A DNA stretch of 64,000 nucleotides, from positions 1 to 64,000 of the forward strand of contig JAUYRZ010000121.1 of the NCBI GenBank assembly GCA_030695565.1. The letters run 5' to 3'. The notes beneath the pieces are model-generated. The model made no database searches. It was given only the letters and a program-made list of their open reading frames with translations, and was not told the origin of the DNA. This DNA is from Archangium sp. (lineage in GTDB: Bacteria; Myxococcota; Myxococcia; Myxococcales; Myxococcaceae). This document shows, in pieces, positions 22,620 to 50,273 of this stretch; position 1 is the stretch's first letter, and every line of letters begins with the position of its first letter. Both the position numbers and the translations under genes were made by a program.

Positions 22620-24533
22620 GTGTCGCGCAAGAAGCTCCGGTTGGTCCAGTTGCCCGTGCCTCCGCCTGCGGCCCTCGCGGCGACAGGCAACGTTCCCCTC
22701 GCAGCCGGTTGTCTGGGGGTCGCCGCACGCGTGCATGGGTTCGGAGATCGCGTCGACGTCGAGGTGGTGGCGCCATCCATCACCGATGGCTTCGGTGACA
22801 CCCGCCTGGCCGAGCTGATCGCCGCCGACGAGCCCGACTATCTGGGCCTCTCGCTGTATCTGTGGAACGTCGATCGCAGCCTGCACCTCGCGCGAGAAGT
22901 GAAGCGGCGCTCACCGCGCACCAAGGTGCTCATCGGGGGTCCCGAGGTCGCGCGCGACAACGGCTGGCTGATGCAGGAGGCCGGCTTCGACATCGCGGTG
23001 GCCGGTGAAGGCGAAGAGGCGCTCGCCGACATCCTCGATCGTGAGCTGAGCGGGCGTGACCTCGCGGGGCTGCCCGGCGTGGCGGTGCGTACGGCAGCCG
23101 GCATGACTGGCTTCGGCCCGTCGCGTTCGGCACAGTTTCCGCTCTCCGATTACCAGTCGCCGTACCTCGCCGACCTGGTGCCGGTGGAGTCGGAGCGTTC
23201 GGCGTACGTGGAAGGTGCGCGCGGGTGCCGCTCGAAGTGCACCTTCTGTTTCTACCCGAAGGCGGCGAGCGGGCTGCGCGTGCTCAACCCCGGCCAGGTG
23301 GAGGCGTTGGTGGCGGGCCTGGGTGCGCGTGGAGCGAAGGAGCTCTCGTTTCTCGACCCGACCTTCAATCACCGCCCCGACTTCGAGCCGGTGTTGGAGG
23401 CGCTCATCCGCGCGAACCCCGACCGGAAGATGTCGTTCTTCGCCGAGGTGCGGCCGGAAGGGCTGAGCCACACCCACGCGGCGATGCTCAAGCGTGCGGG
23501 CTTCGACAAGTTGGAGATCGGCCTGCAGTCGGTGAGCGCGAAGACGCTCAAGCGGGTCAAACGCGGCGGCAACCCCGCGATGGTGGCGGCGGCGGCGAAG
23601 ATGATGCGGGCCGAGGGCATCGACCTGCTGGTGGATTTGATCGTCGGGCTGCCCGGTGACACCGCGGAGGACATCGAGCGGGGCGTCGACTACCTCGAGA
23701 AGCACGACCTCGGCGATTTCGCGCAGGTGTTTGCGCTGTACGTGCTCCCGGGCACGGCGATGCGCGACACGGCGATCGAAGATGGGCTCGTCTTCGAGCC
23801 TGAGCCGCCGTATCGGATCATCCGCACCGCGACGATGGATGAGCAGGCGATTCACGACTCCCTGCGCGCGGCGGAGGAGCGGCTGGGCCGGCGGCTCGAT
23901 GAAAAACCGCGCCCGCACCTGGTGGAGCGGGGGCCGAAGAGCATCGATGTGTTTCAGCTCGATCTCGATCACGTGACCGCGGCGGATCGCGATGCGGCGG
24001 CACAGCCCGGTGCTCAGCATTGTGCGCTGTGGTTCCGCGGAGAGGATCTCTTCGGGCGGCGGGCGGAGCTGCTGCGGGCGATCGAAGCGCGCCAGGCGGT
24101 GGATCCCTACGCGACCCTCGACGTGGTGCTGATGCCCAGCCAGCCGTTTCCACTCGATCTGCTCGGGTTGGTGCAGGGCCGGCTCGATGCGGCGCGCCCC
24201 AGTTACGCCACGCGCAACTTGAAGCATCGTGGTGAGGAGCACTCGCAGCGGGTGAGCGTGGTGCTCGGACAGGAGGTCGACGTGCCGCTCGACTGGGTGC
24301 AGGCGGTGATGTCGCAAGCGCAGGTGTTCAGGGAGCAGTCGATGCAGCAGGCCTCGCGGGATGCGGGGCGGCTGGGTGATGAGCTGCCCGGTGCGCGCAT
24401 CGTGGGCAACTCGATCGAAGGCTTCGCGCAGCTGCAGGCTGCGGCCGACCCCGAGTGTGTGGCGTTCGCGGATCGTGCGCTCGAGGCGCAGTGGCAACGT
24501 CAGGTGCTGGGCTACGGCGACGCAGGTAACTGA
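22620..24533 (+). CDS. Radical SAM protein with N-terminal cobalamin-binding-like domain
   Basis: 637 residues. Residues 1-180 form a Rossmann-like B12-binding-type domain (LAELIAADEPDYLGLSLYLW, KVLIGGPEV, VAGEGEEAL) that lacks a clear DxHxxG motif, so cobalamin may bind base-off or not at all. The radical SAM core has C203-x3-C207-x2-C210, then FLDPTFNHRPDF, LEIGLQSVSAKTL and DLIVGLPGDT. About 230 C-terminal residues show no known domain. It belongs to the B12-dependent radical SAM superfamily (methyltransferases, cyclases and others); the reaction cannot be inferred. GTG 22620 starts 19 bp after the RDD gene, so both may share a transcript. Confidence 0.9.
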   Translation: MSRKKLRLVQLPVPPPAALAATGNVPLAAGCLGVAARVHGFGDRVDVEVVAPSITDGFGDTRLAELIAADEPDYLGLSLYLWNVDRSLHLAREVKRRSPRTKVLIGGPEVARDNGWLMQEAGFDIAVAGEGEEALADILDRELSGRDLAGLPGVAVRTAAGMTGFGPSRSAQFPLSDYQSPYLADLVPVESERSAYVEGARGCRSKCTFCFYPKAASGLRVLNPGQVEALVAGLGARGAKELSFLDPTFNHRPDFEPVLEALIRANPDRKMSFFAEVRPEGLSHTHAAMLKRAGFDKLEIGLQSVSAKTLKRVKRGGNPAMVAAAAKMMRAEGIDLLVDLIVGLPGDTAEDIERGVDYLEKHDLGDFAQVFALYVLPGTAMRDTAIEDGLVFEPEPPYRIIRTATMDEQAIHDSLRAAEERLGRRLDEKPRPHLVERGPKSIDVFQLDLDHVTAADRDAAAQPGAQHCALWFRGEDLFGRRAELLRAIEARQAVDPYATLDVVLMPSQPFPLDLLGLVQGRLDAARPSYATRNLKHRGEEHSQRVSVVLGQEVDVPLDWVQAVMSQAQVFREQSMQQASRDAGRLGDELPGARIVGNSIEGFAQLQAAADPECVAFADRALEAQWQRQVLGYGDAGN

Positions 24534-25675: not shown

Positions 25676-25709
25676 ACCTCGTTTCGGTTTGCTGTAGCGT
25701 GCCGCGGTG

Positions 25710-27992
25710 ATGCGTCTCTTCTTGCTGACGGTGTGCTGTCTTCTGGGTTGCAGCGGGATCACCACCAAGCTGTGTGGTGCTCCCGGCCAACCCTGTTGCG
25801 CCGAGTCGACGTGTGACGCCAACGCGAGCTGCGGCGTCAACGACCTGTGTGAAGCCTGCGGAGCGGAGTCACAGAAGTGCTGCGCGCAAGACACCTGCTC
25901 CGGCACGTTTTCTTGCGTGAGCGGCGCCTGCGTCACCGCGCTCTCCTGCACCGTCACCTGCACCCTGGGCACCGCGCGCTGCCTCAACAACGGCATCGAG
26001 ACCTGCACTGCCGTCGGCGTCTGCCCCGCATGGAGAACCACCATCGCCGCCTGCCCCTCAGGCGCGTTGTGCACCGTCACCGGCAGCGCCGCCGACTGCG
26101 TCGAGACGTGCCCGGGCGCCTGCATGCCCGACGCGTTGTTGTGCACCACCGACGGCCTGCGCCGCTGCGTGGCCAGCGGGGCCTGCCCCACGCTCGCGTC
26201 CGAAACCGACAACACCGACGTGCCCGCCTGCATCTCGGGCGGCGCCATCACCGCCGAGCTCTCCTGGGAGAGCCCCACGCCGCTGGGTGCAGACCTGGTG
26301 GACATCGCAGGCGAGCTGAGCGCCAGCTACTGGGTGCTCGACGAGCTGGGCAACATCGTGCGCTACGCGCTGGGCCCCTGGGAGTTCGAGGTGCGCCCCA
26401 CCGTGGGCAAGAAGATGAAACACCTCGCCTCGTGTGGGCAGGGCTCGATTGTCTTCGCGGCCGGTGAAGCGGGCACGGTGTTGCGGCGCTCCGGCGGCGT
26501 GTGGACCGAAGAGAACGTGGGCAGCAACGTGGTGCTCACCGACATCACCTGCGACTCCACCCGCGCGTATGCGTCGAGCGCAGACGGCCGCCTCTTCGTG
26601 CGCAACGGCTCGACGTGGGCGGGTTACCCCACCGGCACGAGCCAACCCTTCAACACCCTCACCACGCTCTTCTCGGCGCAGAAGATCTACCTCGGCGGAC
26701 AGAGCGGATTGATCATCGCCTGCGACGTCAACGCGCTGCCGCCCACCTGCACCACCGAAGCCAGCGGCACCCTCTCCGACATCAACTCGCTCTGGGGCGA
26801 CCCCTTCACCAACACCGTCTACGCCGGCGGCGACGAAGGAACCCTGCTCGCGCGCGGGGCGACCTGGCTGCCGCTGGCCGTCACCGGGCTGACCCGCACC
26901 GACCGCATCGTGAGCGTCACCGGGCTGTACGACAGCTCGCTGAACCAGACGACCCTGGTGGCCGTCACCGAAGGCGGGAAGTCGATCATCCGCCGCAGCG
27001 CCGCGGTGCAGGACGTGGTGCAGCTGCCCGAGGGCGGCTTCACCTGCGCGTGGGCGCCCAACGAAGACACCCTGCTCTACGCCTCGCGGCATGGCGGCTT
27101 GTGGTTCCGCCCCGGCCTCTTGAGCAACATCCCCTTCAGCGCGCGCGGGGGCCGCAAGCCCATCAGCGCCGATCTCTACGCGGTGGTCAGCGTGGGCCAG
27201 GGCCGGCTCTTCGCGGTCGGTGAAGGGGGCGCGCGGTACCGGCGGCAGAACAACACCTGGAGCATCGACGCGCTCGGCGTCGCCACCACCGCCACCCTGC
27301 GCGCGCTGGCCGCTCGTTCAGCCGGCGAAATCTACGCGGTGGGCACCGAAGGCACCGTGCTGGTGCGCCGCTTCGGAACCTGGGTGGCCGAAGCCGAAGG
27401 CCTCACCACCGAAGCGCTGGTCGCGGTGGTGCTCGACTCTGAACGGGTCTGGGCGCTGGGCGCGACGCGGCTGCTCGAGAAGAACCTCACCAGCGGCGTG
27501 TGGCGTGCGATTCCGCTGCCGCCCGCCACGCCGTACCCGACCTCGCTGGCCCTGCGCAAAGACGTCAACGGCAAAGCGACCGAGCTGGTGGTGGCCGGCG
27601 AAGACTGCACGGTGCTCTCGTTCTCGTTGACCGACGACTCGTTCACGCCCGGCCCCGCCTGCGGCACGCGCTTCGCCTTCAACGCTGCGGCGTTCGCCAG
27701 CTCGGGCGATCTGATCCTCGGCGCGGAGACCGGCACCATTCACCGCCGCACCGGCGCGACCTACACCCTCGAAGCGCTCCCCGGCATGAGCCTCGACGCG
27801 TTCTACGCGCTGGTGCCCGATGGTTCGTCGATGTTCGCGATGGGCCAGGGCGGCCGACTGCTGCGGCGGGTGGGCACCAGCTGGATGGATGTGGCGCCCA
27901 GCGTGACGAAGAGTGAGCTCGCCGCTGGCGTGGCCGATGAAGAAGGGCTCTTCGTGGTGGGTACGAGGGGCCTGGTGCTGCGCCGCCAGTGA
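25710..27992 (+). CDS. Lipoprotein with Cys-rich N-terminus and beta-propeller
   Basis: 760 residues. ATG 25710 (GTG 25707 also possible) gives MRLFLLTVCCLLGC, a lipobox. Residues 15-165 contain about 24 Cys in short units such as CGAPGQPCCAEST and CGVNDLCEAC, common in myxobacterial surface lipoproteins. From about 190 to the end, repeated blades of the type AAGEAGTVLRRSGGVW, AGGDEGTLLARGATWLPL, AVGEGGARYRRQNNTW and AMGQGGRLLRRVGTSWMDV suggest a BNR/YCF48-like beta-propeller of seven or more blades. It is likely surface-exposed and binding; no catalytic residues are seen. Confidence 0.85.
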   Translation: MRLFLLTVCCLLGCSGITTKLCGAPGQPCCAESTCDANASCGVNDLCEACGAESQKCCAQDTCSGTFSCVSGACVTALSCTVTCTLGTARCLNNGIETCTAVGVCPAWRTTIAACPSGALCTVTGSAADCVETCPGACMPDALLCTTDGLRRCVASGACPTLASETDNTDVPACISGGAITAELSWESPTPLGADLVDIAGELSASYWVLDELGNIVRYALGPWEFEVRPTVGKKMKHLASCGQGSIVFAAGEAGTVLRRSGGVWTEENVGSNVVLTDITCDSTRAYASSADGRLFVRNGSTWAGYPTGTSQPFNTLTTLFSAQKIYLGGQSGLIIACDVNALPPTCTTEASGTLSDINSLWGDPFTNTVYAGGDEGTLLARGATWLPLAVTGLTRTDRIVSVTGLYDSSLNQTTLVAVTEGGKSIIRRSAAVQDVVQLPEGGFTCAWAPNEDTLLYASRHGGLWFRPGLLSNIPFSARGGRKPISADLYAVVSVGQGRLFAVGEGGARYRRQNNTWSIDALGVATTATLRALAARSAGEIYAVGTEGTVLVRRFGTWVAEAEGLTTEALVAVVLDSERVWALGATRLLEKNLTSGVWRAIPLPPATPYPTSLALRKDVNGKATELVVAGEDCTVLSFSLTDDSFTPGPACGTRFAFNAAAFASSGDLILGAETGTIHRRTGATYTLEALPGMSLDAFYALVPDGSSMFAMGQGGRLLRRVGTSWMDVAPSVTKSELAAGVADEEGLFVVGTRGLVLRRQ

Positions 27993-28030: not shown

Positions 28031-28663
28031 TCAGAGCTCGGTGATGGTGGAGATCTGCCCTGCGAGCGAGGCGTTCTTCCACGAAGGGTAGTTCATCCGC
28101 AGGGCCGGAGGCTCGAGGCTGAGGCGCGCCTCCATCACCACCTGCTTCGGGGCCGTGGTCTCCACGAAGCCACCGCCGCTCCAGGCGCGGGTGTAGTACT
28201 TCGGCTCCTGCTTGGGCTTGGTCACCTGGTAGACGATCGCGTTGCTCGACGACATCGAGCCGAGCACCGTGATGGCCGCGGGCTGTTGGCCGTCGAGGAA
28301 CTGGCGGTTGGGCGTGCCCTTGGTGAACACGTTGTTGAGCGCCACCTGCATGTCACGCACGCGCGCGTCGACGGTGGTGGAGACCAGGGTCTTGTTCTGC
28401 GGCGCGATGGTGCCCTTGAAGCGGCCATTGATTTGTTTCGCCGCCGCCGCCGGGGTCAGCCCGTCGAAGGTGCGCGTGATGATCAAATCCGCCGTGGTGG
28501 GCGGCCGGCCCAGCCTCGGGGGCAGCGTGATGTTCGCCTTGAGCGGCAGCAGCTTGATCTTCGGTGCCGCAGCCGGAAGCGTCGCAGGCGGAAGCGTCGC
28601 GGGTACCAGCGTGGAGGGCCGCTGCGGGAGGATGTCGCCGATTCGGGAGACCATGGGGCCCAC
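28031..28663 (-). CDS. Hypothetical protein downstream of the caspase-like gene
   Basis: 210 residues, starting at GTG 28663 (ATG 28654 in frame) six bases after the caspase-like gene's stop, so co-transcription is very likely. No signal peptide is seen. The Pro/Ala-rich N-terminus (to about 45) is followed by a mixed alpha/beta domain (ADLIITRTFDGLTPAAAAKQ, ITVLGSMSSSNAIVYQV, YTRAWSGGGFVE). No family is recognised. The tight coupling suggests it is a partner, cargo or substrate of the caspase-like protein. Confidence 0.7.
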   Translation of the reverse strand: MGPMVSRIGDILPQRPSTLVPATLPPATLPAAAPKIKLLPLKANITLPPRLGRPPTTADLIITRTFDGLTPAAAAKQINGRFKGTIAPQNKTLVSTTVDARVRDMQVALNNVFTKGTPNRQFLDGQQPAAITVLGSMSSSNAIVYQVTKPKQEPKYYTRAWSGGGFVETTAPKQVVMEARLSLEPPALRMNYPSWKNASLAGQISTITEL

Positions 28664-28669
28664 ACCATC

Positions 28670-30193
28670 TCAGAAACGGAAGCCGACGCCCACCGTGCCG
28701 CTGGGCCGGAACGCCGCGGCCACCTTGCCATCGAGGCTCAGCAGGGCCACCGCCGCTTCACCGTCCAGGGTGAGCACGAACGGCCCACCCACCAGCAGTC
28801 GCACGCTGGCCCGGGGCGCGGCGATGCCCGCGAAGGAGAACAACACGCCTGCGCCCGTCTGCTGCCAGATGAGGGACGGACCGACCTCCGCGCCCAGGCC
28901 CAACCACACAAGCCCGAACCGCCACGCGTATCGCCAGCCGACCCTCGCTTCGGCCGCGCTCTCCGAGACGGTTCCCCGCGAGGTGTGAGAGCCGACGAGC
29001 GCGAAGCTCAAGCCCGCGCTCAACCGGGGGTCGAAGGAGAGCCGCGCCGCGCCTTGCAACCCCAGGGGCGCGACCGCGGGCACGATGCCGCCCGACAAGC
29101 CGACCATGCGCTCCTCGGGCCAGCGATCGCTCTCGGTGATGGTCTGCGCCACGAAGGCGCCCTTCTGCGCGACCTGCACGGAGTTGCTCAGCTGCCGCAG
29201 CTCTTCCCACTTCACTTCGCGGCGCGTTCCTTCGTTCAAGGCGATGCGCCCGCCGAAGCTCTGGCCTGACTTGAAGACGCGCACGCCGTATTCGCCGGCG
29301 GGCAAGGCGAGCTCGCGGGTGGAGGCGTTGGCGATCTCCGCGATGACCTGATCCCGCAGCACGTCGGTCACCACGCCGCGTTCGGTGCCCGGCGGGAGGA
29401 TCAACTGGGCGTTGGCGCGTTGCAGGGTGGAGAGCACCAGCTCACCCTGGCCCGAGAGTTTGTAGTCGTAGGTCGGGTGCTGCACGCCGGCGGGCAGCAA
29501 CACGGTGCGCGAGACCGTCTGGTCGTAGGCGTAGCGGTACGCTTCACCGAGGGTGACCAGGCGATCTCCGGAGAGGTCAGCCACGCCGCGCAAGCCGGAG
29601 ACGAAGTGGTGGGTGAAGATGCTGCCCAACACCTCATTCGACTCGAGCGCCGCTTCACTCTCCGCGCTGGAGGCGATGTACGCGTCGCCGGTCGATTGCA
29701 GGTTGTCGGTGAGCTTGATGGCGAAGGCCTCGGTGGGTTTGCCGCCCTTCTCGCGATAGCCCGCGCCCGAGCGGCAGGCGTCGACCACCACCACGCGCAC
29801 GTCGCCGGTGCCCGCGAGGATGCCCTTGAGCCGCGAGTACGGGAGCACTTCGTTGCCGAGCTCGAGCCCTTCTCCATCGGAGTGGCCAGAGAAGTAGAAC
29901 AGCAGCACGGCGCGGTTTTCAGGGGTGCGCTTGACCGCGTCGATCTGCTCACGCACCCGGAGCAACGCCTGCTCGAGATCCTTCACCTGCCGGCCCTGGA
30001 GCAGCTGCATGCGCTCGGCGCTCACGTCACCCAGCTCGAGCAACACGCGGGCGAACTTGCCGGCATCACCCTCGGCGTACCGCAATGGCGGCAGCGCACC
30101 CCGGCCCGCGTTGTTGCCCACCACCACGGCGAAACGGATGGTCTCCGCGCGCACCGAAGCAGCAGCAATGATCAACAGGAGCAGGAGGCGCAT
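28670..30193 (-). CDS. Exported caspase-like (C14) protease with beta-barrel-like C-terminus
   Basis: 507 residues with a Sec signal peptide (MRLLLLLIIAAASVRA). Residues 18-245 form a caspase fold: FAVVVGNN, a dyad of H104 in YFSGHSDGEG and C140 in VVVVDACRSG, and an acidic S1-pocket candidate. Residues 245-330 resemble a PEGA-like domain (ALPAGEYGVRVFKSG). From about 365, amphipathic strands end in a terminal Phe (VGVGFRF), the usual signature of an outer-membrane barrel. Bacterial caspase homologues are mostly cytoplasmic; export joined to a barrel-like domain places this one at the outer membrane. Cleavage specificity (Arg/Lys as in metacaspases, or Asp) cannot be read. Confidence 0.87.
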   Translation of the reverse strand: MRLLLLLIIAAASVRAETIRFAVVVGNNAGRGALPPLRYAEGDAGKFARVLLELGDVSAERMQLLQGRQVKDLEQALLRVREQIDAVKRTPENRAVLLFYFSGHSDGEGLELGNEVLPYSRLKGILAGTGDVRVVVVDACRSGAGYREKGGKPTEAFAIKLTDNLQSTGDAYIASSAESEAALESNEVLGSIFTHHFVSGLRGVADLSGDRLVTLGEAYRYAYDQTVSRTVLLPAGVQHPTYDYKLSGQGELVLSTLQRANAQLILPPGTERGVVTDVLRDQVIAEIANASTRELALPAGEYGVRVFKSGQSFGGRIALNEGTRREVKWEELRQLSNSVQVAQKGAFVAQTITESDRWPEERMVGLSGGIVPAVAPLGLQGAARLSFDPRLSAGLSFALVGSHTSRGTVSESAAEARVGWRYAWRFGLVWLGLGAEVGPSLIWQQTGAGVLFSFAGIAAPRASVRLLVGGPFVLTLDGEAAVALLSLDGKVAAAFRPSGTVGVGFRF

Positions 30194-30220: not shown

Positions 30221-30257
30221 CCCCTCTCCCTTTGGGAGAGGCTCAGGGTGAGGGCCT
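30221..30257. repeat. Palindromic repeat between PilZ and caspase-like genes
   Basis: CCCCTCTCCC, TTT, GGGAGAGGCTCAGGGTGAGGG. It lies between two same-strand genes and could separate them into two transcripts. Confidence 0.75.
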
Positions 30258-34817: not shown

Positions 34818-35495
34818 TCAGGCCCCGCGCAGGCGCTGCACGTCGGCTTTGTTGAACACCCCGTCGCTCTCGTAGAAGTCGACCACGCCGGTGTCCAGGT
34901 TGTGGATCGCCCCGATCACACCGATCTTCTGATCCTCCACCATCTGCTCGAGGATGAAGCTGCGCTCGACGACTGCCTTGACCGAACGAAGCACGTTGAT
35001 GCGCGCGACGTTCTCGACGAACTCCCGATTCTTCGAGGTGCGCTGCGCGGCGTCCAGGATGGTGCGCTCCTGGTAGATGGCGGGCTGGAGCTTGGCGAGC
35101 AGCTCGGTGAGGTTGCCCATCTCGACGTGGTCGCAGGCGCCCTTGATGGCACCACAGCTGGTGTGGCCGAGCACCACCAGCAGCTTGCTGCCCGCCAGGT
35201 TGCAGGCGAACTCCATGCTGCCGAGGATGTCGGTGTTGACGATGTTGCCGGCGATGCGAATCGAGAAGATGTCGCCCAGGCCTTGATCGAAGATCAGCTC
35301 GGCCGACGTGCGGCTGTCGATACAAGAGAGCACGGTGGCGAAGGGCCACTGACCGTCTCGCGTCTGGTTCGCCTGCATCAGCAGGTCGCGGTTGGTCTTC
35401 AGGTTGTTGACGAAACGAATGTTGCCCTCGCGCAGGTACGCGAGCGCGAGCTGAGGGGTGGTGCTGGTCTGCGTCTCGATGGTCTGAACGATCAT
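34818..35495 (-). CDS. Beta-class carbonic anhydrase
   Basis: 225 residues, typical length. Zinc ligands are C58 (in SCIDSR), H111 and C114 (in GHTSCGA), with the Asp-Arg dyad D60/R62. It interconverts CO2 and bicarbonate in the cytoplasm. Other family marks: IRIAGNIVN and NLTELLAKLQPAI. It faces the bestrophin gene at 35581 across 85 bp, so both may be controlled from one region. Confidence 0.95.
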   Translation of the reverse strand: MIVQTIETQTSTTPQLALAYLREGNIRFVNNLKTNRDLLMQANQTRDGQWPFATVLSCIDSRTSAELIFDQGLGDIFSIRIAGNIVNTDILGSMEFACNLAGSKLLVVLGHTSCGAIKGACDHVEMGNLTELLAKLQPAIYQERTILDAAQRTSKNREFVENVARINVLRSVKAVVERSFILEQMVEDQKIGVIGAIHNLDTGVVDFYESDGVFNKADVQRLRGA

Positions 35496-35580
35496 GGGTA
35501 CCCCAAGCAGGTGAATGATGGCGTGGAGCGTAGCTCAGCTCGCCTTGACCCCTTGATACTCCCGTGCGACTGCCTCAGGG

Positions 35581-36474
35581 ATGCTGGTCTCCAACCGCGT
35601 TCCGCTCTCGTACGTCTTCGACAGGGTCAAGGTCGATGTGCTGCGCGTCGTGTTCTTCTCGCTGCTCTTTCAGGTGATCAAGTACTTCATCAATGGCTGG
35701 CTGCCAGAAGTACCCATGCAGTTCCCCGCCCTGCTGGGTACGTCGATCGCCTTGCTGCTCGCCTTCAACATCAACCAGTCGTACGAGCGGTGGTGGGAAG
35801 CGCGGAAGATCTGGGGGGCGATCGTCAACGACTCACGCACCCTCATCCTGCAGCTGGCCTGCTTCGTCAGCCACGCAGACCCGAGCCTGCGGCGCTTCGC
35901 TCACCGGCAAATTGGCTGGTGTTACGCGCTGGGCGCTTCGTTGAGGGGCCACGCACCGCTGGACGAGGCGCAGAAGGAGCTGCTGAGCGCTGACGACCTG
36001 GCCTTCGCATCGAGCCAGACGAACGTTCCGTTGGGGCTCTTGATGCGGCACCAGCTCGAGCTCGCGGCGCTGCACCAGGCCGGGCAGCTCAACGACTTCC
36101 AGCAGATCCAACTCGACAGCACGCTGGTGCGCCTCTGCGAATCGATGGGCCGCGCCGAGCGCATCAAGAACACCGTGTTCCCCGTCACGTACCGGCTCTT
36201 CCTTCACCTCTTCATCTATCTCTTCCTGCTCGTGCTCTCGTTGGCGTTGGTCGGGGCGCTGGGGCTCTATGAAGTTCCCGTGCTGGTGCTGGTCGCGTCG
36301 ACCTTCTTTCTGGTCGAGAGGACCGCGCTCTACATGCAGGACCCCTTCGAGGGCCGGCCGACCGACACCGCGATGACCGCGATCGCCCGCGCCATCGAGA
36401 TCAACCTGCGCCAGCTCACCGGTGAAACCGAAGTGCCGCCGCCCCTCGAGCCGCAGGGCTTCTTCTTGATGTGA
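35581..36474 (+). CDS. Bestrophin-family anion channel
   Basis: 297 residues, usual for bacterial bestrophins. The family pattern is clear: N-terminal helix, then PALLGTSIALLLAFNINQSYERWWEARKIWG, long helices, a second pair of membrane helices (LFLHLFIYLFLLVLSLALVGALG) and the C-terminal DPFEGRPTDTAMTAIARAIEINLRQLTG. Bacterial homologues form pentameric channels (cations or anions); some algal bestrophins carry bicarbonate. Facing a carbonic anhydrase gene suggests bicarbonate or chloride handling, as inference. Confidence 0.92.
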   Translation: MLVSNRVPLSYVFDRVKVDVLRVVFFSLLFQVIKYFINGWLPEVPMQFPALLGTSIALLLAFNINQSYERWWEARKIWGAIVNDSRTLILQLACFVSHADPSLRRFAHRQIGWCYALGASLRGHAPLDEAQKELLSADDLAFASSQTNVPLGLLMRHQLELAALHQAGQLNDFQQIQLDSTLVRLCESMGRAERIKNTVFPVTYRLFLHLFIYLFLLVLSLALVGALGLYEVPVLVLVASTFFLVERTALYMQDPFEGRPTDTAMTAIARAIEINLRQLTGETEVPPPLEPQGFFLM

Positions 36475-40424: not shown

Positions 40425-40460
40425 CCCCTCACCCCAGCCCTCTCCCCGAGGGGGAGAGGG
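40425..40460. repeat. Palindromic repeat encoding the tail of the giant repeat protein
   Basis: CCCCTCACCCCAGCCCTCTC then CCCGAGGGGGAGAGGG. Read on the minus strand it encodes TLSPSGRGLG and the TGA stop of the giant gene. Confidence 0.8.
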
Positions 40461-43400
40461 TGTTCCTTCGGCGTGAACGGAGCATCAGCACCAGACCGAA
40501 CGCCAGCAACGACGCGCTCTCGGCACCGACCCCGCAGCCACACCCCATCGGCTTCGGCTCGGCCACCGTGAACGTCTGCACCAGGCCAAACGCCACCCCG
40601 CCCGCGGTCTCCGCCACGGCGCAGTAGTAGAAGGTGCCCGCCGCGCCCGGAATCACGTGCGTGAACGGCACCTCCGACTCGGAGTCCGTCAGCGCAATGC
40701 CCTCGAGCGGCAGCCTGTCGCCGAAGGTCGCCGTGCAGACGATCGGCCGCTCACGCCCGACCTGGAACCACGCCTTGCCCGTCATGCCGTAGCTGTTCGC
40801 CGAGCCATTGAGCGTGGCCGTGCCATCGGCCGTCACCGTCGCCAGGTCCGTGCGCGCCGTCGGCGTGGTGCTGGCGGTCTTGAAGCTGACCACCGCACCG
40901 AACGCCGCACCGCCCACGTTCGAGGCGAGCGCGCACACGTAATACGTCAGGCCTGGCTTGAGCCCAGTGAGCGCCACTTCGTAGGGAACGTCGTTCGTGC
41001 CGGTGCCCAGGTCGATGCCGCCCATCGCCGGCACACGCGTGCCGAAGGTGTCGTCACAGCTGGCGGGCAGGGTGGTCGAGTAGCGGAACCACCCCGAGCC
41101 CACCGTGCCGCGCGGGTTGGCGATGGCGTTGAGCGTCGCTTCACGCGTGGTCAGGTCGCTCGCCATTTCGGTGGTCACCGTGGGCAAAGGCGCCTCCACC
41201 GTGAACGAGAGCAGCTGGCCGAACGCCGTGCCCACCAGGTTCGAGCTGATCGCGCAGAAGAAGTACGTCACGCCCGGAGCCAGCCCGCTGATCGGCTGCG
41301 AGAAGCTCTGCGTGCTCATGCCCGCGCCCAACGCGGTGCCGCCGCTGAACGGAGTCCGCGTACCGAACGAGTCGTTGCACGCGCCGGGATCGAACGGGCT
41401 GTAGCGGAACCAACCCGTCGTCGTCGCACCGTTGGGGTTCGCCCCGCCGTTGAGCGTGGCCAGCCCGCCCACCACGTTGGTGGCAGATGAGGTCATCACC
41501 GTCGGCGCCGCCGGCGTGTGGAAGGTCATCACCGCGCCCACCGAGAGGCCGACCCCGTTCGAGGCCAGGGCGCAGAAGAAGTAGTCCGTGCCCGGGGTGA
41601 GCCCGGTGACGTTCTGCGAGAAGTTGATCACCGTGAAACCGCCGCCCAGCGCCGAGCCCAGGGTCGTGGGAGCGCGCGTGCCGAAGGTGTCGTTGCAGGT
41701 GACCGGGTCGACCGTCGCGTAGCGGAACCAGCCGGTGGTCACCGCGCCGTTCGCATTGCCTGAACCCGGCAAGGTCACCGTGGTGCCGGTGATGGCCGTG
41801 GCCGCCAGCGTGGTGACCGTGGGCGCACCCGGCGTGATGAAGGTCTGCACTGTGCCGAACGAGGTAGAGGCGGAGTTCTGAGCGATGGCGCAGAAGTAAT
41901 ACGTGGTGCCCTGCATCAAGCCCGTGACGGCCTGGCTGAAGTTCACCGCCGCGTTGCCGCTGCCCAGGCTCGAGCCCGCGCTGGTCGGCGCACGCGTACC
42001 GAAGGTGTCATTGCAGGTGCCGGGGCTGGTGGTGGCGTAGCGGAACCAGCCGGTGGTGGCCGCGCCTCCGGGGTTGGCTGAGCCGTTGAGCGTCGCGCTC
42101 ATGCCAGTCACCAGCGTCGCCGCGGTGGTGGTCACCTGCGGTCCCGCTGCGGGCACGGTGAACGACTGCGGCGTCCCGAACGCGGTGCCGATGGCGTTCG
42201 AGCCGATGGCGCAGAAAAAGTACGTCGCGCCCGGAGTCAGCCCGGAGAGCGTCTGCGAATACGGCGCCGCCGTGGTGCCGCTGCCCAACGCCACGCCACC
42301 CGCCGCCGGCGAACGGGTGCCGAAGGTATCGTTACAGGTGGTGGGGTTGGTCTGCGCGTAGCGGAACCAACCGGTCGCTGCGATCGCATTGGGGTTGACC
42401 GTGCCATTCAGGGTGGCGCTGGTGCCGCTCACTCCGCTGGCCGCGACCGTGGTGACCACCGGCGGTGCAGGCGTGGCGAAGCTGAGCACGCTGCCGAACC
42501 GCGTCCCGAAGGAGTTCGAGGCGATGGCGCAGTAGAAGTACGTGGTGCCCGCGGTCAGCCCGCTGATGTTCTGCAGGTACGTGATGGGCGTGATGGCCGT
42601 GCCCAACGCGGTGCCGCCCGTGGCAGGTGAACGCGTGCCGAAGGCGTCGTCACACGTGCCGGGGTTGGTGGTCGAGTAGCGGAACCAGCCCGTGGTGGCC
42701 GCGGTGTTCGCGGTGACCGAGCCGTTGAGCGTCGCGCCCGAAGACGTCACGCCCGACGCCGCGGTGGTGGTGACCGACGGCGGCCCCGGCGTGGTGAACA
42801 CTTCCACCGAGCCGTTCGAGGTGCCCGCCGCGTTCGAAGCGAGCGCACAGAAGTAATAGGTGGTGCCCGGCGTGAGGCCGGTGACGTTCTCGGTGAAGCC
42901 CACCGGAGAGGTGCCTGCGCCCAACGCGGTGCCCCCGGTCGCCGGGATGCGCGTGCCGAAGGTGTCGTTGCAGCCGCCCGGGTTGCTCGAGGCGTAGCGG
43001 TACCAGCCCGTCGACGCCAGGCCTCGCGGGCTCGCCGAGCCGTTGAGCGTCGCAGTGGTGCCGGTGATGGCCGACGCCGGAGAAGTGGCCACGGCCGGGC
43101 CGGCGGCGGTGGTGAAGGAGAGCACCGCTCCGAAGCGGGTGCCCACGCCGTTGCTCGCGATGGCGCAGAAGTAATACGTGGTGGCCGACGCGAGCCCGGT
43201 GATGACCTGGCTGTAGGGGGTGACCACGAAGCCGGCTCCGAGCGAGGTGCCGCCCGAGACAGGCGCCCGCACGCCGAAGGTGTCGTTGCAGGTGACCGGG
43301 TTGGTGGTGCTGTAGCGGAGGTACCCCGTGGTGGCGCTGCCCGCAGGGTTCGCTTCACCGTTCAAGGTGGCGCCCGAGCTGGTCACCGCGGTGGCGGCCA

Positions 43401-46400
43401 ACGAGGAGACCACCGGCGTGCCCGGCGTGGTGAAGGACATCACCGCGCCGAAAGAGACCCCCGCCGAGTTCGAGGCGATGGCGCAGTAGAAGTACGTGTT
43501 GCCGCTCACCAGGGTGCTCAACACCTGGCTGTAGGCCACCGCCGTGCTGCCGGCGCCCAGGGCGGTGCCGCCGCTCGCAGGGGAGCGCGTGCCGAAGGTG
43601 TCGTTGCAGCTGCCCGGGTCGACCGTGGCGTAACGGAAGTAGCCGGTGGCCGTCAGCCCGCTGGGGTTGGCCGAGCCGTTGAGCGTCGCGCTGGTCGAGC
43701 CGACCCCGCTCGCCGCCGCCGTGGTGACCACCGGCGCGGAAGGCGTGGTGAACGAGACCACCGAGCCCAACGTGGTGCCCACCGAGTTCGAGGTGATGGC
43801 GCAGAAGTAATAGGTGGTGAGCGAGGTGAGGCCGGTCAACACCGCCGTGTACGGCACCGCGGTGCTGCCGCTGCCCAGGCTGGTGCCCCCGGTGAGCGGA
43901 GTGCGCGTGCCGAAGGTGTCGTTGCAGCTGCCGGGGTTGCTGGTGCTGTAGCGGAACCAACCGGTGGCCGCATCACCGCGGGGATTGCCGCTCGCGTTGA
44001 GGGTGGCGCCGGTGGCCGACAGCGCGGTGGCCGCGTTGGTGTTGGCGGTGGGGACGTTGGTGGTGGTGAAGCTGAGCACCGTGCCCACCGAGGTGCCCTG
44101 GCTGTTCGAGGCCAGCGCGCAGAAATAGTACGTGGTGCCGGGGCTCAGGCCGGTGAGGGCCTCTTCGTACGGCGTGCTGGTGCTGCCCGCGCCCAACGAG
44201 GTGCCGCCGGTGGTGGGTGCCCGCGTGCCGAAGGTATCGTTGCAGGTGCCCGGGCTGGTGGTGGCGTAGCGGAACCAGCCGGTGCTCGCGTCACTGCGCG
44301 GGTTGGCAGCGCCGTTGAGCGTCGCGCCCGTGCTGGAGAGCAGCGTGGCCGCCGTGGTGGTGACCACCGGCGCCGACGAGGTGCTGAAGGAGACCGGCGT
44401 GCCCAGGCGCGTGCCCGAGGCGTTGTTGGCGATCGCACACACCCAGTACGTGGTGCCCTGGGCGAGTCCCGTGAGGGCCTGGGTGAAGGCGACCTGCGTG
44501 TTGCCGGTGCCCAGCGCCGTGCCGCCGCTCGTCGGCGCGCGCGTGCCGAGCGAGTCGTTGCAGGTGCCCGGGTTGGTCGTGAAGTAGCGGAAGTAGCCGG
44601 TGGTGGCCTGGCCGTTGGGGCTCGCTGAGCCTTCCAGCGTCGCCGTGGTGGTGGTGATGGCGCTGGCCGCGTTGGTCACCACCGTAGGAGGCCCAGGCGT
44701 GGTGAAGGTCAGCACGTTGCCGAAGCCGGAGCCGGCCGCGTTCGTGCCCTGCGCGCAGAAGTAATAGGTGGTGCCCGCCACCAGGCCACTGATGGCCTGC
44801 ACGTGGCTGATCGCCGAAGTGCCTGCGCCGAGCGCGGTGCCGCCGCTCGCCGGGGCCCGCGTACCGAAGCTGGCGGTGCAGCTGCCCGGGTCGACGTTGG
44901 AGTAGCGGAAGAAGCCGGTGGCCGACGAGCCGTTGGGGTTGGTGGAGCCGTTGAGCGTCGCGGTGGTGCTGGTCACGCCGGTGGCCGCGAGGGTGACCGG
45001 GGTGGGCGCGTTGGTGGTGGTGAAGCTGAGCACCGAGCCGAACGAGGTGGCCACCGCGTTCGAGGCGATGGCGCAGAAGAAGTACGTGGTGCCCTGGCTC
45101 AGGCCGCTGATGGCCTGCGAGAAGGACACGCCGGTGGCGCCCGCACCGAGCGCGGCACCGCCAGTCGAAGGCGCGCGCGTGCCGAAGCTGTCGTCACAGG
45201 TGCCGGGGTTCACCGTGGAATAGCGGAACCAGCCGGTGGCCGCGTCGCGGTTGGGGTTGGCCGAGCCGCTGAGCGTGGCGCCGGTGGAGGCGATGGCGCT
45301 CGCCGCCGAGGTGATGACGGTGGGCGCGGCCGTGGTGGTGAACGACAAGACGCCGCCGAACGAGGTGGCCTCCGAGTTCACCGCCAGCGGGCAGAAATAA
45401 TACGTGGTGCCCGGCAACAGGCCGGTGACGGTCTGCGCGTAGGCCACCGCGCTGATGCCCGAGCCCAACGAGCTGCCGCCGGTCGCAGGGCTGCGCTCGC
45501 CGAAGGTGTCGTTGCAGGTGCCCGGGCTCGCGGTGGCGTAGCGGAAGTAGCCGGTGGTGGCTGCTCCGTTGGGGTTCGCGCTGGCGTTGAGCTGCACGGT
45601 GGTGCTGCCCACCAGGGTCGCCGCCGAGGCCGCCACCGAAGGCGGCGAGGCGGGCGTGGTGAAGGAGAGCAACGCTCCGAACGACGTGCCCACCGAGTTC
45701 TGGCCGATGGCGCAGAAGAAATACTGCGTGCCGGGCGAGAGCGAGTTGAGCGCGGTGGCCCACGAGAAGGCGCTCGCTCCCGAACCGAGGTTGGTGCCGC
45801 CGCTGATCGGCGTGCGCGTGCCGAAGGTGTCGTTGCAGCTGCCCGGGTCGACCGTGCTGTAGCGGAACCAGCCCGTGGCGGCCGTGCCGTTGGGTGTACC
45901 GGTGCCGTTGAGGGTGGCGGTGTTGGCGGTCACCGGAGAGGCCGCGTTGGTCACCACCGTGGGCGCGGCGGGCGTGGCGAAGGGCAGCACCAGGCCGAAC
46001 ACGGTGCCCAGCGAGTTCTGCGCGATGGCGCAGAAGTAATACGTCGAGCCGGGGATGAGCCCGGTGAGCGACTGGCTGAAGGGCATCGCCGTGACGCCCG
46101 CACCCAGGTCGGTGCCCGAGGCCGCGGGTGAACGCGTACCGAAGGTGTCGTTGCAGGTGCCCGGGTTGACGGTCGAGTAGCGGAACCAGCCGGTGGTGGT
46201 GGCGCCGTTGGGGGTGGAGGAGCCGTTCACCGTGGCCGTGGTGCCTCCGATGGCGGTGGCCGCGAGCGTGTTGATCGACGGCTGCGTGGGCGTGGTCTGG
46301 AAGGTGAGCACCGCGCCGGTGCTGGTGCCGAACGCGTTGCTGGCGATGGCGCAGAAATAATAGGTGGCGCCGGTGGTGAGGGTGGCCGGCGTGACGGAGA

Positions 46401-49400
46401 ACGGCACGGGGCTCGTGCCGCTGCCCAGCGCCGTGCCGCCGCTCGCGGGCGCGCGGGTGCCGAAGCTGTCGTTGCAGGTGCCCGGGTTGGTGGTCGAGTA
46501 GCGGAACCAGCCGGTGGCGCTCGAGCCGTTGGGCGTGGCCGACGCGTTCATCGAGGCCGAGACGGTGGTGATGCCGGTGGCCGAGAGCGTGGTGACCGCG
46601 GGCGGGGCGGCCAGCGTGGTGAAGGGCACCACGCCTCCGAAGGTCGTGCCCACCGAGTTCTGCGCGATGGCGCACACGTAATAGGTGGTGACGATCGACA
46701 GCCCGGTGAGCGCTTCGGAGAACGCGACGGCCGTATTGCCGGTGCCCACGTCGGTGCCTCCGGAGAAGGGCACCCGGAAGCCGAAGCTGTCGTTGCAGGT
46801 GCCGGGGTTCACCGTGTCGTAGCGGAACCACGCGGTGGTGGCCGCGCCGCCCGGGTTGACGTTGCCGCGGATGGTGGCCGTGCTGCCGGCGATGGGCGAG
46901 GCGCTGTTGGTGTTGACCACCGGCGCGGTCGGCGGCGTGGTGAAGGAGCTCACCGCACCGAAGCCGGTGCCCACCGGGTTCGAGGCGATGGCGCACACGA
47001 AGTAGGTGGTGCCCGGCAAGAGCCCGGTGAGCGCGCGCGGAAAGGGCAAAGGCGTGGAGCCCGAGCCCAGCGAAGTGCCGCCGCTCACGGCCGGGTGGCG
47101 GGTGCCGAAGCTGTCACTGCAGGTGCCCGGGTTCACCGTGGCGTAGCGGAAGTAGCCGGTGGTCGTTTCCCGGTTGGGGTTCGCCGTGCCGTTGAGCTGC
47201 GCGGTGGTCGAGGTGATCAACGTCGTCGCGTCGGTGGTGACCGTGGGCGCGGCGGGCGTGATGAAGGTGAGCACGGCTCCGAAGCCGGTGCCCACCAGGT
47301 TCGAAGCCAGCGCGCAGTAATAGTAGGTCGCGCCCGGGGTGAGCCCGCTGACGCTCTGACCCCAGCCGCCCGCGGTGGTGCCGGCGCCCAGGTTGGTGCC
47401 GCCGCTCAGGGGCGCGCGGGTGCCGAAGCTGTCGTTGCACGAGCCGGGGTCCGTCAAGGCGTAGCGGAACCAGCCGGTGCTCGAGCCGCCGTTGGGGTTG
47501 GCCACGCCGTTGAGCTGCGCGCTGGTGCCGGCGAGGAAGCTGACCGGGCTGGTGGTGACGGTGGGCGTGTTGGGAACGAGGAAGGTGTTCACGCCGCCGA
47601 CCGAGGTGCCGATGACGTTGCTGGCCAGCGCGCAGAAATAATAGACGGTGCCGGGCACCAGGCCGGTGAGGTCTTCATCGAAGCCGATGCTGGTGTTGCC
47701 AGCACCCAGCGCAGTGCCACCGGTTGCAGGCGCTCGCGTGCCGAAGGTGTCGTTGCAGCTGCCGGGGTCGGTGCTGCTGAAGCGGAACCAACCGGTCGCC
47801 GCGTCACCGCGCGGGTTGGCCGAACCGTTAAGCCGCGCGGTGCTGCCGGTGATCAACGTGGTCGAGCTGGTGGTGACGAGGGGCGCGGTGGGCGGGGTGG
47901 TGAAGCTCGACAACGAGCCCAGCGTGGTGCCCACCGAGTTCGAGCCGATGGCGCAGAAGTAATAGGTGGTGCCGGGCGTCAGGCCGCCGATGGCCAGCGA
48001 GTAGTTCACCGGCGCTGCGCCCGCGAAGAGGTTGGTGCCGCCGCTGACGGGAACGCGCGTACCGAAGAAGTCGGTGCACATGCCGGGGTTCACGTTGCTG
48101 TAGCGGAACCATGCGGTGGTGGTGGCGCTGTTGGGGTTGCCGCTGCCGTTGAGCGTGGCGCTCGTCGCGGCCACCGGCGCCGCGGTGAGCGTGGTCATCG
48201 CGGGCGCCGCGGGGGTGAAGAACGAGAGCACCGCACCGAAGCCGGTGCCCACCGAGTTGCTGGCGATGGCGCAGAAGAAATAGGTCGCGCCGGGGGTCAG
48301 GCCGCTGAGGTTCTCCGCGAAGCCCACCTGGGTGGTGCCGGAGCCCAGGAACGTGCCGCTGCTGGTGGGTGCGCGCGTGCCGAAGGTGTCGTTGCAGGTG
48401 CCGGGGTCGACGGTGCTGTAGCGGAAGTAGCCCGTGGTGGGCCCGAGGTTCGGGTCTGCCGAGCCGTTGAGCGTGGCGAAGGTGCCGCCGATGCCGCTGG
48501 CCGCCTGGGTGATGGCCACCGGCACGTCGTGCGTGGTGAAGGTGAGCACCGCGCCCACGGTGGTGCCCACCGAGTTCGAGGCGATCGCGCAGTAGTAATA
48601 AAGGGTGCCCGGGGTGAGCCCGGTGAGCGGCGTGGTGAAGCCGATGTCCGTATTGCCGGCGCCCAGCGCCACGCCACCGCTCGCCGGAGCACGCGTACCG
48701 AAGGTGTCGTCGCAGGTGGTGGGGTTCACCGTGGAGTAGCGGAACCAGCCGGTGCTGGCGTCACCACGCGGGCGGCCCGTGCCGTTGAGCGTCGCTGCGT
48801 TGCCGGAGATGGAGGAGACGCCGTTGGTGGTGACGAACGGCGCGGTCGGCGGCGTGGTGAAGCTCTGCAACGAACCGAAGCCGGTGCCGACCGAGTTCGA
48901 GGCGATGGCGCAGTAGAAATACGTGGTGCCCGGGCTCAGCGCCGAGCTGGCCCAGGAGAAGTTCACGCTGGTGCTGCCTGCGCCGAGGTTGGTGCCGCCG
49001 CTCGACGGAAGCCGCACGCCGAAGGTGTCGTTGCAGGTGCCCGGGTTGCTGGTGGCGAAACGAACCCAGCTGGTGGTCGCGGCGCCGTTGGGAATGGCCG
49101 AGCCGTTCATCGTGGCCGACTGCGGCTGCAGCAGCGTCACCCCGCCGGTGGTCACCGCAGGCAGGTCGGGGGTGGTGAAGGTGAGCACGCCGCCCAGGGT
49201 GGTGCCCTGCGAGTTCTGAGCGATGGCGCAGTAGTAATAGGTGGTGCCCGGCGACAGGCCCGTCGCGCTCAACGAGTACGAGCTCACGAAGCTGGCAGAG
49301 CCGAGCGCCGTGCCGCTGGCCGCGGGGATGCGGGTGCCGAACACGTCGCTGCACGAGCCGGGGTTCGAGGCGCTGATGCGGAACCAGCCCAGGGTCGAGG

Positions 49401-50181
49401 CGCCGTTGGGGTTCACGTTGCCGTTGAGTTGGGCAGTGGTGCCGGTGACGGAGGTGGCCGCGGTGGTGGTGACGTCGGGCACGGCGACCAGCGTGGTGAA
49501 CGAGAGCAGGTTGCCGGCGGTGGTGCCCACCCCGTTGGTGGACAGCGCGCAGTAGTAATAGGTGGTGCCCGCGAGCAGGCCGGTGACGAACTCGGTGTAC
49601 ACGACCGAACCATTGCCGCCGCCGAGCGCCGTGCCGCCCGTCGTGGGGAGGCGCGTACCGAAGGTGTTGTTGCAGGTGCCCGGGCTGCTGGTGCTGTAGC
49701 GGAAGAAGCCGGTGGCCGGCGAGCCGTTGGGCGTGGCCGAGCCGTTGAATGTCGCCGCGCTGCTGGTGACGCTGGTGGCCGCGGCGGTGGCCACGCTGGG
49801 CACCTGGGCCGGGGTGGTGAACGAGTTGATGGTGCCCAGGCCCGTGCCGCTGGCGTTCTGGGTGACGGCGCAGAAGAAGTAGGTGTTGCCCGGCAGCAGG
49901 CCGGTGGTGCTCACGGAGTACGGCGCGTTGGCGGCGCCCGCGCCCAACGAGGTGCCGCCGGTGCTGGGCACCCGGGTGCCGAAGACGTCGTCGCAGGTGC
50001 CGGGGTTGGTGGTGCTCAGGCGGAACCAGCCCGTGGTCGCTTCACTACCGGGGTTGCCCGAGCCGTTGAGCAGCGCGGAGTTCGCGGTGACGCCCGTCGC
50101 GGCGGAGGTGGTGGCGGTGGGGGCGATGGCGAAGGCGGCGGTGCTGGCGAAGGCAGCAATGAGACGAAGAGCGCGGATCAT
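40429..50181 (-). CDS. Giant secreted protein: about 30 FN3-like repeats with paired Cys and a MYXO-CTERM-like tag
   Basis: 3250 residues from ATG 50181 with a Sec signal peptide (MIRALRLIAAFASTAAFA). Thirty repeats of about 105 residues follow. Each has TATLNGSANP, TTGWFRYSTTNPGTC(N/D)D, FGTR-P-x-SGG, LTGL-PGTTYYFCAIASN and FTTP-AP-V, the strand order of a fibronectin type III-like sandwich. Each has one Cys before FGTR and one in YYFCA, probably an intradomain disulfide, about 60 Cys in all. The end has GCGCGVGAESA, a hydrophobic helix and RSRRR, a MYXO-CTERM-type tag, then a tail encoded by the palindrome. It is probably a very long surface-anchored adhesin or fibre. No enzymatic domain is seen. 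Export would need a dedicated disulfide and sorting supply. Confidence 0.9.
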   Translation of the reverse strand: MIRALRLIAAFASTAAFAIAPTATTSAATGVTANSALLNGSGNPGSEATTGWFRLSTTNPGTCDDVFGTRVPSTGGTSLGAGAANAPYSVSTTGLLPGNTYFFCAVTQNASGTGLGTINSFTTPAQVPSVATAAATSVTSSAATFNGSATPNGSPATGFFRYSTSSPGTCNNTFGTRLPTTGGTALGGGNGSVVYTEFVTGLLAGTTYYYCALSTNGVGTTAGNLLSFTTLVAVPDVTTTAATSVTGTTAQLNGNVNPNGASTLGWFRISASNPGSCSDVFGTRIPAASGTALGSASFVSSYSLSATGLSPGTTYYYCAIAQNSQGTTLGGVLTFTTPDLPAVTTGGVTLLQPQSATMNGSAIPNGAATTSWVRFATSNPGTCNDTFGVRLPSSGGTNLGAGSTSVNFSWASSALSPGTTYFYCAIASNSVGTGFGSLQSFTTPPTAPFVTTNGVSSISGNAATLNGTGRPRGDASTGWFRYSTVNPTTCDDTFGTRAPASGGVALGAGNTDIGFTTPLTGLTPGTLYYYCAIASNSVGTTVGAVLTFTTHDVPVAITQAASGIGGTFATLNGSADPNLGPTTGYFRYSTVDPGTCNDTFGTRAPTSSGTFLGSGTTQVGFAENLSGLTPGATYFFCAIASNSVGTGFGAVLSFFTPAAPAMTTLTAAPVAATSATLNGSGNPNSATTTAWFRYSNVNPGMCTDFFGTRVPVSGGTNLFAGAAPVNYSLAIGGLTPGTTYYFCAIGSNSVGTTLGSLSSFTTPPTAPLVTTSSTTLITGSTARLNGSANPRGDAATGWFRFSSTDPGSCNDTFGTRAPATGGTALGAGNTSIGFDEDLTGLVPGTVYYFCALASNVIGTSVGGVNTFLVPNTPTVTTSPVSFLAGTSAQLNGVANPNGGSSTGWFRYALTDPGSCNDSFGTRAPLSGGTNLGAGTTAGGWGQSVSGLTPGATYYYCALASNLVGTGFGAVLTFITPAAPTVTTDATTLITSTTAQLNGTANPNRETTTGYFRYATVNPGTCSDSFGTRHPAVSGGTSLGSGSTPLPFPRALTGLLPGTTYFVCAIASNPVGTGFGAVSSFTTPPTAPVVNTNSASPIAGSTATIRGNVNPGGAATTAWFRYDTVNPGTCNDSFGFRVPFSGGTDVGTGNTAVAFSEALTGLSIVTTYYVCAIAQNSVGTTFGGVVPFTTLAAPPAVTTLSATGITTVSASMNASATPNGSSATGWFRYSTTNPGTCNDSFGTRAPASGGTALGSGTSPVPFSVTPATLTTGATYYFCAIASNAFGTSTGAVLTFQTTPTQPSINTLAATAIGGTTATVNGSSTPNGATTTGWFRYSTVNPGTCNDTFGTRSPAASGTDLGAGVTAMPFSQSLTGLIPGSTYYFCAIAQNSLGTVFGLVLPFATPAAPTVVTNAASPVTANTATLNGTGTPNGTAATGWFRYSTVDPGSCNDTFGTRTPISGGTNLGSGASAFSWATALNSLSPGTQYFFCAIGQNSVGTSFGALLSFTTPASPPSVAASAATLVGSTTVQLNASANPNGAATTGYFRYATASPGTCNDTFGERSPATGGSSLGSGISAVAYAQTVTGLLPGTTYYFCPLAVNSEATSFGGVLSFTTTAAPTVITSAASAIASTGATLSGSANPNRDAATGWFRYSTVNPGTCDDSFGTRAPSTGGAALGAGATGVSFSQAISGLSQGTTYFFCAIASNAVATSFGSVLSFTTTNAPTPVTLAATGVTSTTATLNGSTNPNGSSATGFFRYSNVDPGSCTASFGTRAPASGGTALGAGTSAISHVQAISGLVAGTTYYFCAQGTNAAGSGFGNVLTFTTPGPPTVVTNAASAITTTTATLEGSASPNGQATTGYFRYFTTNPGTCNDSLGTRAPTSGGTALGTGNTQVAFTQALTGLAQGTTYWVCAIANNASGTRLGTPVSFSTSSAPVVTTTAATLLSSTGATLNGAANPRSDASTGWFRYATTSPGTCNDTFGTRAPTTGGTSLGAGSTSTPYEEALTGLSPGTTYYFCALASNSQGTSVGTVLSFTTTNVPTANTNAATALSATGATLNASGNPRGDAATGWFRYSTSNPGSCNDTFGTRTPLTGGTSLGSGSTAVPYTAVLTGLTSLTTYYFCAITSNSVGTTLGSVVSFTTPSAPVVTTAAASGVGSTSATLNGSANPSGLTATGYFRYATVDPGSCNDTFGTRSPASGGTALGAGSTAVAYSQVLSTLVSGNTYFYCAIASNSAGVSFGAVMSFTTPGTPVVSSLAATAVTSSGATLNGEANPAGSATTGYLRYSTTNPVTCNDTFGVRAPVSGGTSLGAGFVVTPYSQVITGLASATTYYFCAIASNGVGTRFGAVLSFTTAAGPAVATSPASAITGTTATLNGSASPRGLASTGWYRYASSNPGGCNDTFGTRIPATGGTALGAGTSPVGFTENVTGLTPGTTYYFCALASNAAGTSNGSVEVFTTPGPPSVTTTAASGVTSSGATLNGSVTANTAATTGWFRYSTTNPGTCDDAFGTRSPATGGTALGTAITPITYLQNISGLTAGTTYFYCAIASNSFGTRFGSVLSFATPAPPVVTTVAASGVSGTSATLNGTVNPNAIAATGWFRYAQTNPTTCNDTFGTRSPAAGGVALGSGTTAAPYSQTLSGLTPGATYFFCAIGSNAIGTAFGTPQSFTVPAAGPQVTTTAATLVTGMSATLNGSANPGGAATTGWFRYATTSPGTCNDTFGTRAPTSAGSSLGSGNAAVNFSQAVTGLMQGTTYYFCAIAQNSASTSFGTVQTFITPGAPTVTTLAATAITGTTVTLPGSGNANGAVTTGWFRYATVDPVTCNDTFGTRAPTTLGSALGGGFTVINFSQNVTGLTPGTDYFFCALASNGVGLSVGAVMTFHTPAAPTVMTSSATNVVGGLATLNGGANPNGATTTGWFRYSPFDPGACNDSFGTRTPFSGGTALGAGMSTQSFSQPISGLAPGVTYFFCAISSNLVGTAFGQLLSFTVEAPLPTVTTEMASDLTTREATLNAIANPRGTVGSGWFRYSTTLPASCDDTFGTRVPAMGGIDLGTGTNDVPYEVALTGLKPGLTYYVCALASNVGGAAFGAVVSFKTASTTPTARTDLATVTADGTATLNGSANSYGMTGKAWFQVGRERPIVCTATFGDRLPLEGIALTDSESEVPFTHVIPGAAGTFYYCAVAETAGGVAFGLVQTFTVAEPKPMGCGCGVGAESASLLAFGLVLMLRSRRRNTLSPSGRGLG
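40640..50160 (-). repeat. About 30 tandem coding repeats of roughly 315 bp
   Basis: Blocks such as GTGCCGAAGGTGTCGTTGCA (plus-strand reading) recur about every 315 bp across the gene. Neighbouring copies share long DNA identities while others differ at many synonymous sites, suggesting both age and partial homogenisation. Assembly collapse or expansion is possible here. Confidence 0.85.
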
Positions 50182-50231
50182 GGGCGCGCGTCTAACCCCT
50201 GAGGCAGGGTGCTGTGTGCAAAACGAAGCTT

Positions 50232-50273
50232 CCCTCTCCCTCGGGGCCCTCGGGGAGCGGGTCAGGGGGGTCA
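50232..50273. repeat. Palindromic repeat upstream of the giant gene
   Basis: CCCTCTCCCTCGGGGCCCTC then GGGGAGCGGGTCAGGGGGGT. A diverged copy between two divergent genes (giant repeat protein and DUF1697). Confidence 0.65.

Follow-up and report, generated by a model that had tools for sequence, protein, structure and literature searches.

A putative outer-membrane-anchored metacaspase of Archangium sp., related to sigma-linked caspases and encoded beside a repeat lipoprotein gene

The caspase gene within a 64,000-nucleotide stretch of Archangium sp. DNA (contig JAUYRZ010000121.1, positions 1 to 64,000; the window) is best read as encoding a metacaspase/orthocaspase-type cysteine protease that faces the periplasm and is tethered to the outer membrane. 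With moderate confidence we propose that this Sec-exported protein acts in envelope signalling or processing, and that its gene is a duplicate from a sigma-linked lineage that has resettled with a partner gene and a repeat lipoprotein gene. To our knowledge the functions of bacterial caspases are mostly not established, and a caspase anchored to the outer membrane whose lineage is linked to ECF sigma and anti-sigma genes offers a concrete and testable role in regulated proteolysis within the cell envelope.

The locus

The features of the locus, in window coordinates, are as follows.

25707..27992, plus strand: convergent repeat lipoprotein gene, 761 aa, with a lipobox (LLGC) and a Cys-rich N-terminus
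28031..28654 (or 28663, GTG), minus strand: partner gene, 207 aa (or 210 aa), next downstream of the caspase gene
28670..30193, minus strand: caspase gene, Peptidase C14, 507 aa (signal peptide, caspase domain, beta domain and C-terminal 8-stranded barrel)
30146..30193, minus strand: signal peptide of the caspase, residues 1-16, identified by hydropathy, cleavage expected after A16 (between SVRA and ET)
29420..30136, minus strand: caspase fold, residues 20-258 (Pfam C14 over residues 20-205; structure matches with Z 19.9)
29882..29884, minus strand: catalytic His104, invariant in 31 sequences
29774..29776, minus strand: catalytic Cys140, with Asp138, the metacaspase-type S1 acid, two residues before it; invariant in 31 sequences
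29747..29749, minus strand: Lys149, candidate self-cleavage site, invariant and in the disordered p20/p10 linker
29543..29578, minus strand: EF-hand-like loop D206-x-S-G-D210-x-x-V-T-L-x-E217, putative calcium site; D206, D210 and E217 invariant
29189..29419, minus strand: all-beta middle domain, residues 259-335, from an AlphaFold2 model
28676..29107, minus strand: outer-membrane-type 8-stranded beta-barrel, residues 363-506, followed by the terminal Phe507 (AlphaFold2 and fold matches)
30222..30254, no strand assigned: dispersed hairpin repeat TCCCNNTGGGAGAGGNNNNGGGTGAGGG, just upstream of the caspase gene, with 17 exact copies in the genome

The coordinates and strand given for the caspase and partner genes in an earlier note on this DNA are correct, and the third-position GC of 0.89 for the caspase and 0.92 for the partner is that of real genes in this genome, consistent with both being coding. 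The dN/dS values, 0.16-0.28 for the caspase and 0.41 for each of the partner and the lipoprotein, point to purifying selection on the caspase and to the maintenance of all three genes. Upstream of the caspase, the 17 exact copies of the hairpin compare with 0 for a reversed control, identifying it as a dispersed REP-like element, while a scan for sigma-70 promoters gave nothing exceeding chance.

Elsewhere in the window, genes for a beta carbonic anhydrase and a bestrophin-type channel adjoin divergently at 34818-36474, possibly a bicarbonate-handling pair. At 40429-50367 a 3312-aa protein is encoded that contains fibronectin type III repeats and repeats resembling the N-terminal domain of purple acid phosphatases; it is probably a large protein of the cell surface.

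Caspase domain and active site

Peptidase_C14 alone among the Pfam models matches the caspase (E=1e-11, residues 20-205, above the cut-off). An AlphaFold2 model built on the 31-sequence alignment has a mean pLDDT of 84.8, and its caspase part matches both procaspase-3 and Arabidopsis metacaspase-4 over about 200 residues with a Z of 19.9. The caspase fold and the assignment to family C14 are thus well supported, and when the family profile is compared with PDB sequences the nearest are metacaspases rather than caspases. The catalytic pair His104 and Cys140, placed exactly in the earlier note, shows no variation across the 31 relatives, and neither do Asp138 and Asp43. In the model and alignment Asp43 sits on helix 1 and Asp138 two residues before Cys140, and the two acids are equivalent, by position only, to Asp95 and Asp211 of TbMCA2, which accommodate basic P1 side chains (PMC4357240, PMC6426788). 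Based on this equivalence the enzyme is predicted to cleave after Arg or Lys rather than after Asp.

The linker between the p20- and p10-equivalent parts, residues 145-165, is of low pLDDT in the model, and the conservation of Lys149 in this disordered segment suggests that the protein perhaps cleaves itself here. Likewise, the conserved residues of the EF-hand-like loop suggest that calcium possibly controls the enzyme; EF-hand Pfam models give a weak match to one family member. The all-beta middle domain had been described as PEGA-like. Since the Pfam PEGA model is absent from all 31 members at E<=0.5, this identity has been dropped.

Export and the outer-membrane barrel

The proposed signal peptide is borne out by a strongly hydrophobic N-terminus, with a mean hydropathy of 3.1 over the best 12 residues, and by an A-x-A type cleavage site at which Ala16 is nearly invariant in the 31-sequence alignment. 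At the other end of the protein, where a barrel-like region ending in Phe had been suspected, structure prediction gives eight strands across residues 363-506 with pLDDT of about 90-97. The best PDB matches of this part in Foldseek, all at probability 1.0, are the solved eight-stranded barrels of NspA, OmpA, Ail, OmpW and OmpX. Hydrophobic and polar residues alternate in most of the strands. The barrel region of the window caspase has no sequence family match, and the OMP_b-brl and Opacity Pfam models each match one relative. A C-terminal outer-membrane signature is present in 19 of the 31 caspases and in 27 of 272 background genes. The caspase therefore carries a signal peptide, an even number of strands, amphipathic alternation and a C-terminal aromatic residue, as expected of outer membrane beta-barrels. 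Together the model and the family-wide C-terminal signatures provide good support for the earlier placement of the protein at the outer membrane, into which the modelled barrel is predicted to insert. In eight-stranded outer-membrane barrels both termini lie on the periplasmic side and, with a signal peptide in front, the protease domain should therefore face the periplasm.

Origin among sigma-linked caspases

The Archangium genome contains six C14 genes. An ECF sigma factor is encoded no more than about 1.4 kb from five of these, the exception being the one in the window. Searches of the 64-kb window around the caspase for the family's sigma and anti-sigma factors found no match at E<=1e-4. 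The nearest paralogue, on another contig (C108), lies beside purF in an arrangement of ECF sigma, anti-sigma and caspase that is found in many relatives; the zf-HC2 and DUF4384 models match the anti-sigma of this purF-linked locus weakly. Maximum-likelihood analysis groups the window caspase with five relatives in a clade of 6 (support 100/100) that is nested among the sigma-linked caspases, which indicates that the window gene is a duplicate no longer tied to a sigma operon. A 2012 survey documents the linkage of myxobacterial metacaspases to sigma-70 factors, which holds for four of the five in Myxococcus xanthus (Asplund-Samuelsson et al. 2012, PMC3501461).

The outer-membrane-anchored caspase of the ancestral operons might act as the periplasmic protease that cuts the membrane anti-sigma and so frees the ECF sigma factor, with the window lineage since rewired to the partner and lipoprotein. 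We regard this specific route as doubtful, though if it is true the outer-membrane-anchored caspases of myxobacteria are the proteases of a trans-envelope signalling route. A signalling role is implied by the sigma-linked ancestor, but the window copy may not keep it.

The partner and the repeat lipoprotein

From the ATG at 28654 the partner begins MVSRIGD, and its nearest homologue (in genome G002) begins MGSRIDV. This match makes the ATG the probable start in preference to the GTG at 28663, so that the gap to the caspase is probably 15 bases; the six bases given earlier hold for the GTG start. The AlphaFold2 model of the partner (pLDDT 80, from an alignment of only 7 sequences) has a Pro-rich disordered N-terminus and a compact alpha/beta domain. 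Neither Pfam nor NCBIfam gives a family match, and comparison of the fold by Foldseek and VIA-align yields no PDB match at E<=0.001 (best Z 2.4), although with a model from 7 sequences the absence of a known fold is weak evidence. No hydrophobic export signal is seen in the partner or in any homologue tested, which weighs against contact with a periplasmic protease. In genome G022 a 733-aa frame spanning partner and caspase is merely open, the two genes being separate, and the apparent fusion was discarded.

The convergent lipoprotein carries a repeat of about 42 aa in about 12 copies, which from their sequence may be propeller-like. Homologues encoded beside the partner are roughly 740-830 aa, cysteine-rich and with a lipoprotein-like start, the gene in G006 being cut short by the end of its contig. 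In one genome (G073; L065 4498-8393) the lipoprotein gene is preceded on its own strand by three genes: one for an ECF sigma factor, one for a putative anti-sigma factor that zf-HC2 matches only weakly, and a small one whose product starts like a signal peptide; here too a sigma pair adjoins the repeat lipoprotein.

Linkage of the three genes

The genomes bearing the locus are nearly all drafts, metagenome-assembled where the origin is stated, and the linkage counts that follow are small and not independent. Within the family 7 of 96 genomes have the partner, and a single genome belonging to a different family has it too. The earlier note had presented it as coupled to the caspase. It does lie directly downstream of a caspase in five of the eight partner genomes, yet in the three others (G023, G073 and G161) no caspase stands beside the partner and lipoprotein, and G003, which carries the closest relative of the window caspase (84% identical), has kept the lipoprotein and lost the partner. 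The most faithful companion of the partner is instead the repeat lipoprotein gene, missing from that note: the two occur together in all eight partner genomes, adjacent in seven and two genes apart in G002. Of 92 family genomes, 8 have the lipoprotein gene itself: G003 and the seven that carry the partner. The caspase accompanies the lipoprotein in 6 of the 92, and all six members of the caspase clade have it nearby. The caspase-linked rows cluster in the trees of both the partner (support 91/90) and the lipoprotein (100/100). These observations fit a caspase duplicate having joined an older partner-lipoprotein pair, the alternative being loss of the caspase in G023, G073 and G161.

It is also conceivable, though we think it rather improbable, that caspase and partner are functionally unrelated and that the duplicate merely landed beside the older pair. 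The stronger linkage of the partner to the lipoprotein (8/8) than to the caspase (5/8) is what this would predict, as is the missing export signal. However, caspase and partner have stayed adjacent, at gaps of roughly 9-132 bp, even where the caspases share just 52% identity, and the retention of the lipoprotein near every caspase of the clade also argues against chance neighbours.

Proposed mechanism and remaining alternatives

We favour an envelope-located protease for processing or sensing, as its sigma-linked ancestry and new setting beside partner and lipoprotein make probable. The protein would be exported by Sec, its C-terminal barrel inserting into the outer membrane and the caspase domain hanging in the periplasm. 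Its ancestor was encoded with an ECF sigma and a membrane anti-sigma, and the duplicate lost this pair and settled beside the partner gene and the gene for the convergent repeat lipoprotein. The trigger may be a signal from the envelope, possibly Ca2+ bound by the EF-hand-like loop, and activation may involve cleavage of the protein's own p20/p10 linker at Lys149. Once active, the protease would cleave envelope proteins on the C-terminal side of Arg or Lys; the partner and the repeat lipoprotein are candidates for its substrate, sensor or regulator. The data bear out the intact catalytic residues, the caspase fold, the barrel, purifying selection, the duplication history and the gene linkage, whereas the steps of activation, the specificity, the substrate and any contact with the partner are inferred.

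An outer-membrane caspase could also be an executioner, degrading envelope proteins in programmed lysis or autolysis during development. Myxobacteria undergo developmental lysis and have several caspases, metacaspases are raised as candidate autolytic enzymes in the 2012 survey (PMC3501461), and the catalytic residues here are intact. Nevertheless, the many paralogues in sigma/anti-sigma operons are a better fit to regulation, and the restriction of caspase with lipoprotein to 6 of 92 family genomes shows that this is not a general developmental requirement; we consider such a role unlikely. A role of the partner as dedicated inhibitor or toxin, the pair forming a toxin-antitoxin-like or defence module, is highly improbable: the short-gap, co-directional pairing in five of eight genomes would suit it, but in G003 the partner is cleanly gone, with 16 bp separating the convergent stops of an intact caspase and the lipoprotein (L052 8914-8935), which argues against an essential inhibitor, three genomes have the partner and lipoprotein with no adjacent caspase, and the partner appears not to be exported.

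Of the roles suggested in the earlier note, envelope processing is plausible, but a defence or predation system gains no support from the searches made. A PADLOC search at E<=0.01 matches none of the trio of caspase, partner and lipoprotein, and no copies of the partner were found on plasmid or phage records, on which ground a mobile origin was rejected. A defence island was likewise rejected, the one PADLOC match in the tested set being a generic neighbour: a B12-binding radical SAM gene at 22620-24533, which matches the candidate model PDC-M51A (E=3e-34) and may represent a generic family match.

Comparison with known systems

The closest known system is that of the myxobacterial sigma-70-linked metacaspases, which belong to the same protein family and whose ancestral setting is ECF sigma, anti-sigma and caspase, often beside purF. 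The window copy differs in lacking sigma and anti-sigma genes; it is followed instead by a gene of no known family and the convergent gene for the repeat lipoprotein. No barrel anchor was found described for these metacaspases in the accessible part of the survey (PMC3501461). A literature search with subscription papers mostly outside its coverage found no paper describing a barrel-anchored caspase. The barrel anchor and the three-gene locus thus appear undescribed in the literature searched, while the sigma link of myxobacterial caspases is already published. With members that have or lack the sigma pair, and have or lack the partner, this single caspase clade constitutes a natural experiment.

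With TbMCA2, Arabidopsis MCA4 and the cyanobacterial orthocaspases the window protein shares the caspase fold, the His/Cys dyad and the acidic S1 residues. In contrast to these, it is predicted to be exported, is fused to an outer-membrane-type barrel and has an EF-hand-like loop in its p10-equivalent part. The barrel resembles NspA, the transmembrane domain of OmpA, OmpW, OmpX and Ail in its eight strands, its length of about 145 residues, its terminal Phe and its alternation of polar and apolar residues, but whereas those stand alone this one would anchor a protease by its C-terminus. The omptins OmpT and Pla are also proteases of the outer membrane with cleavage at basic residues, but in them the 10-stranded barrel is itself the protease and faces outward. 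In the window protein, by contrast, the protease would be a separate caspase domain, facing the periplasm from an 8-stranded barrel.
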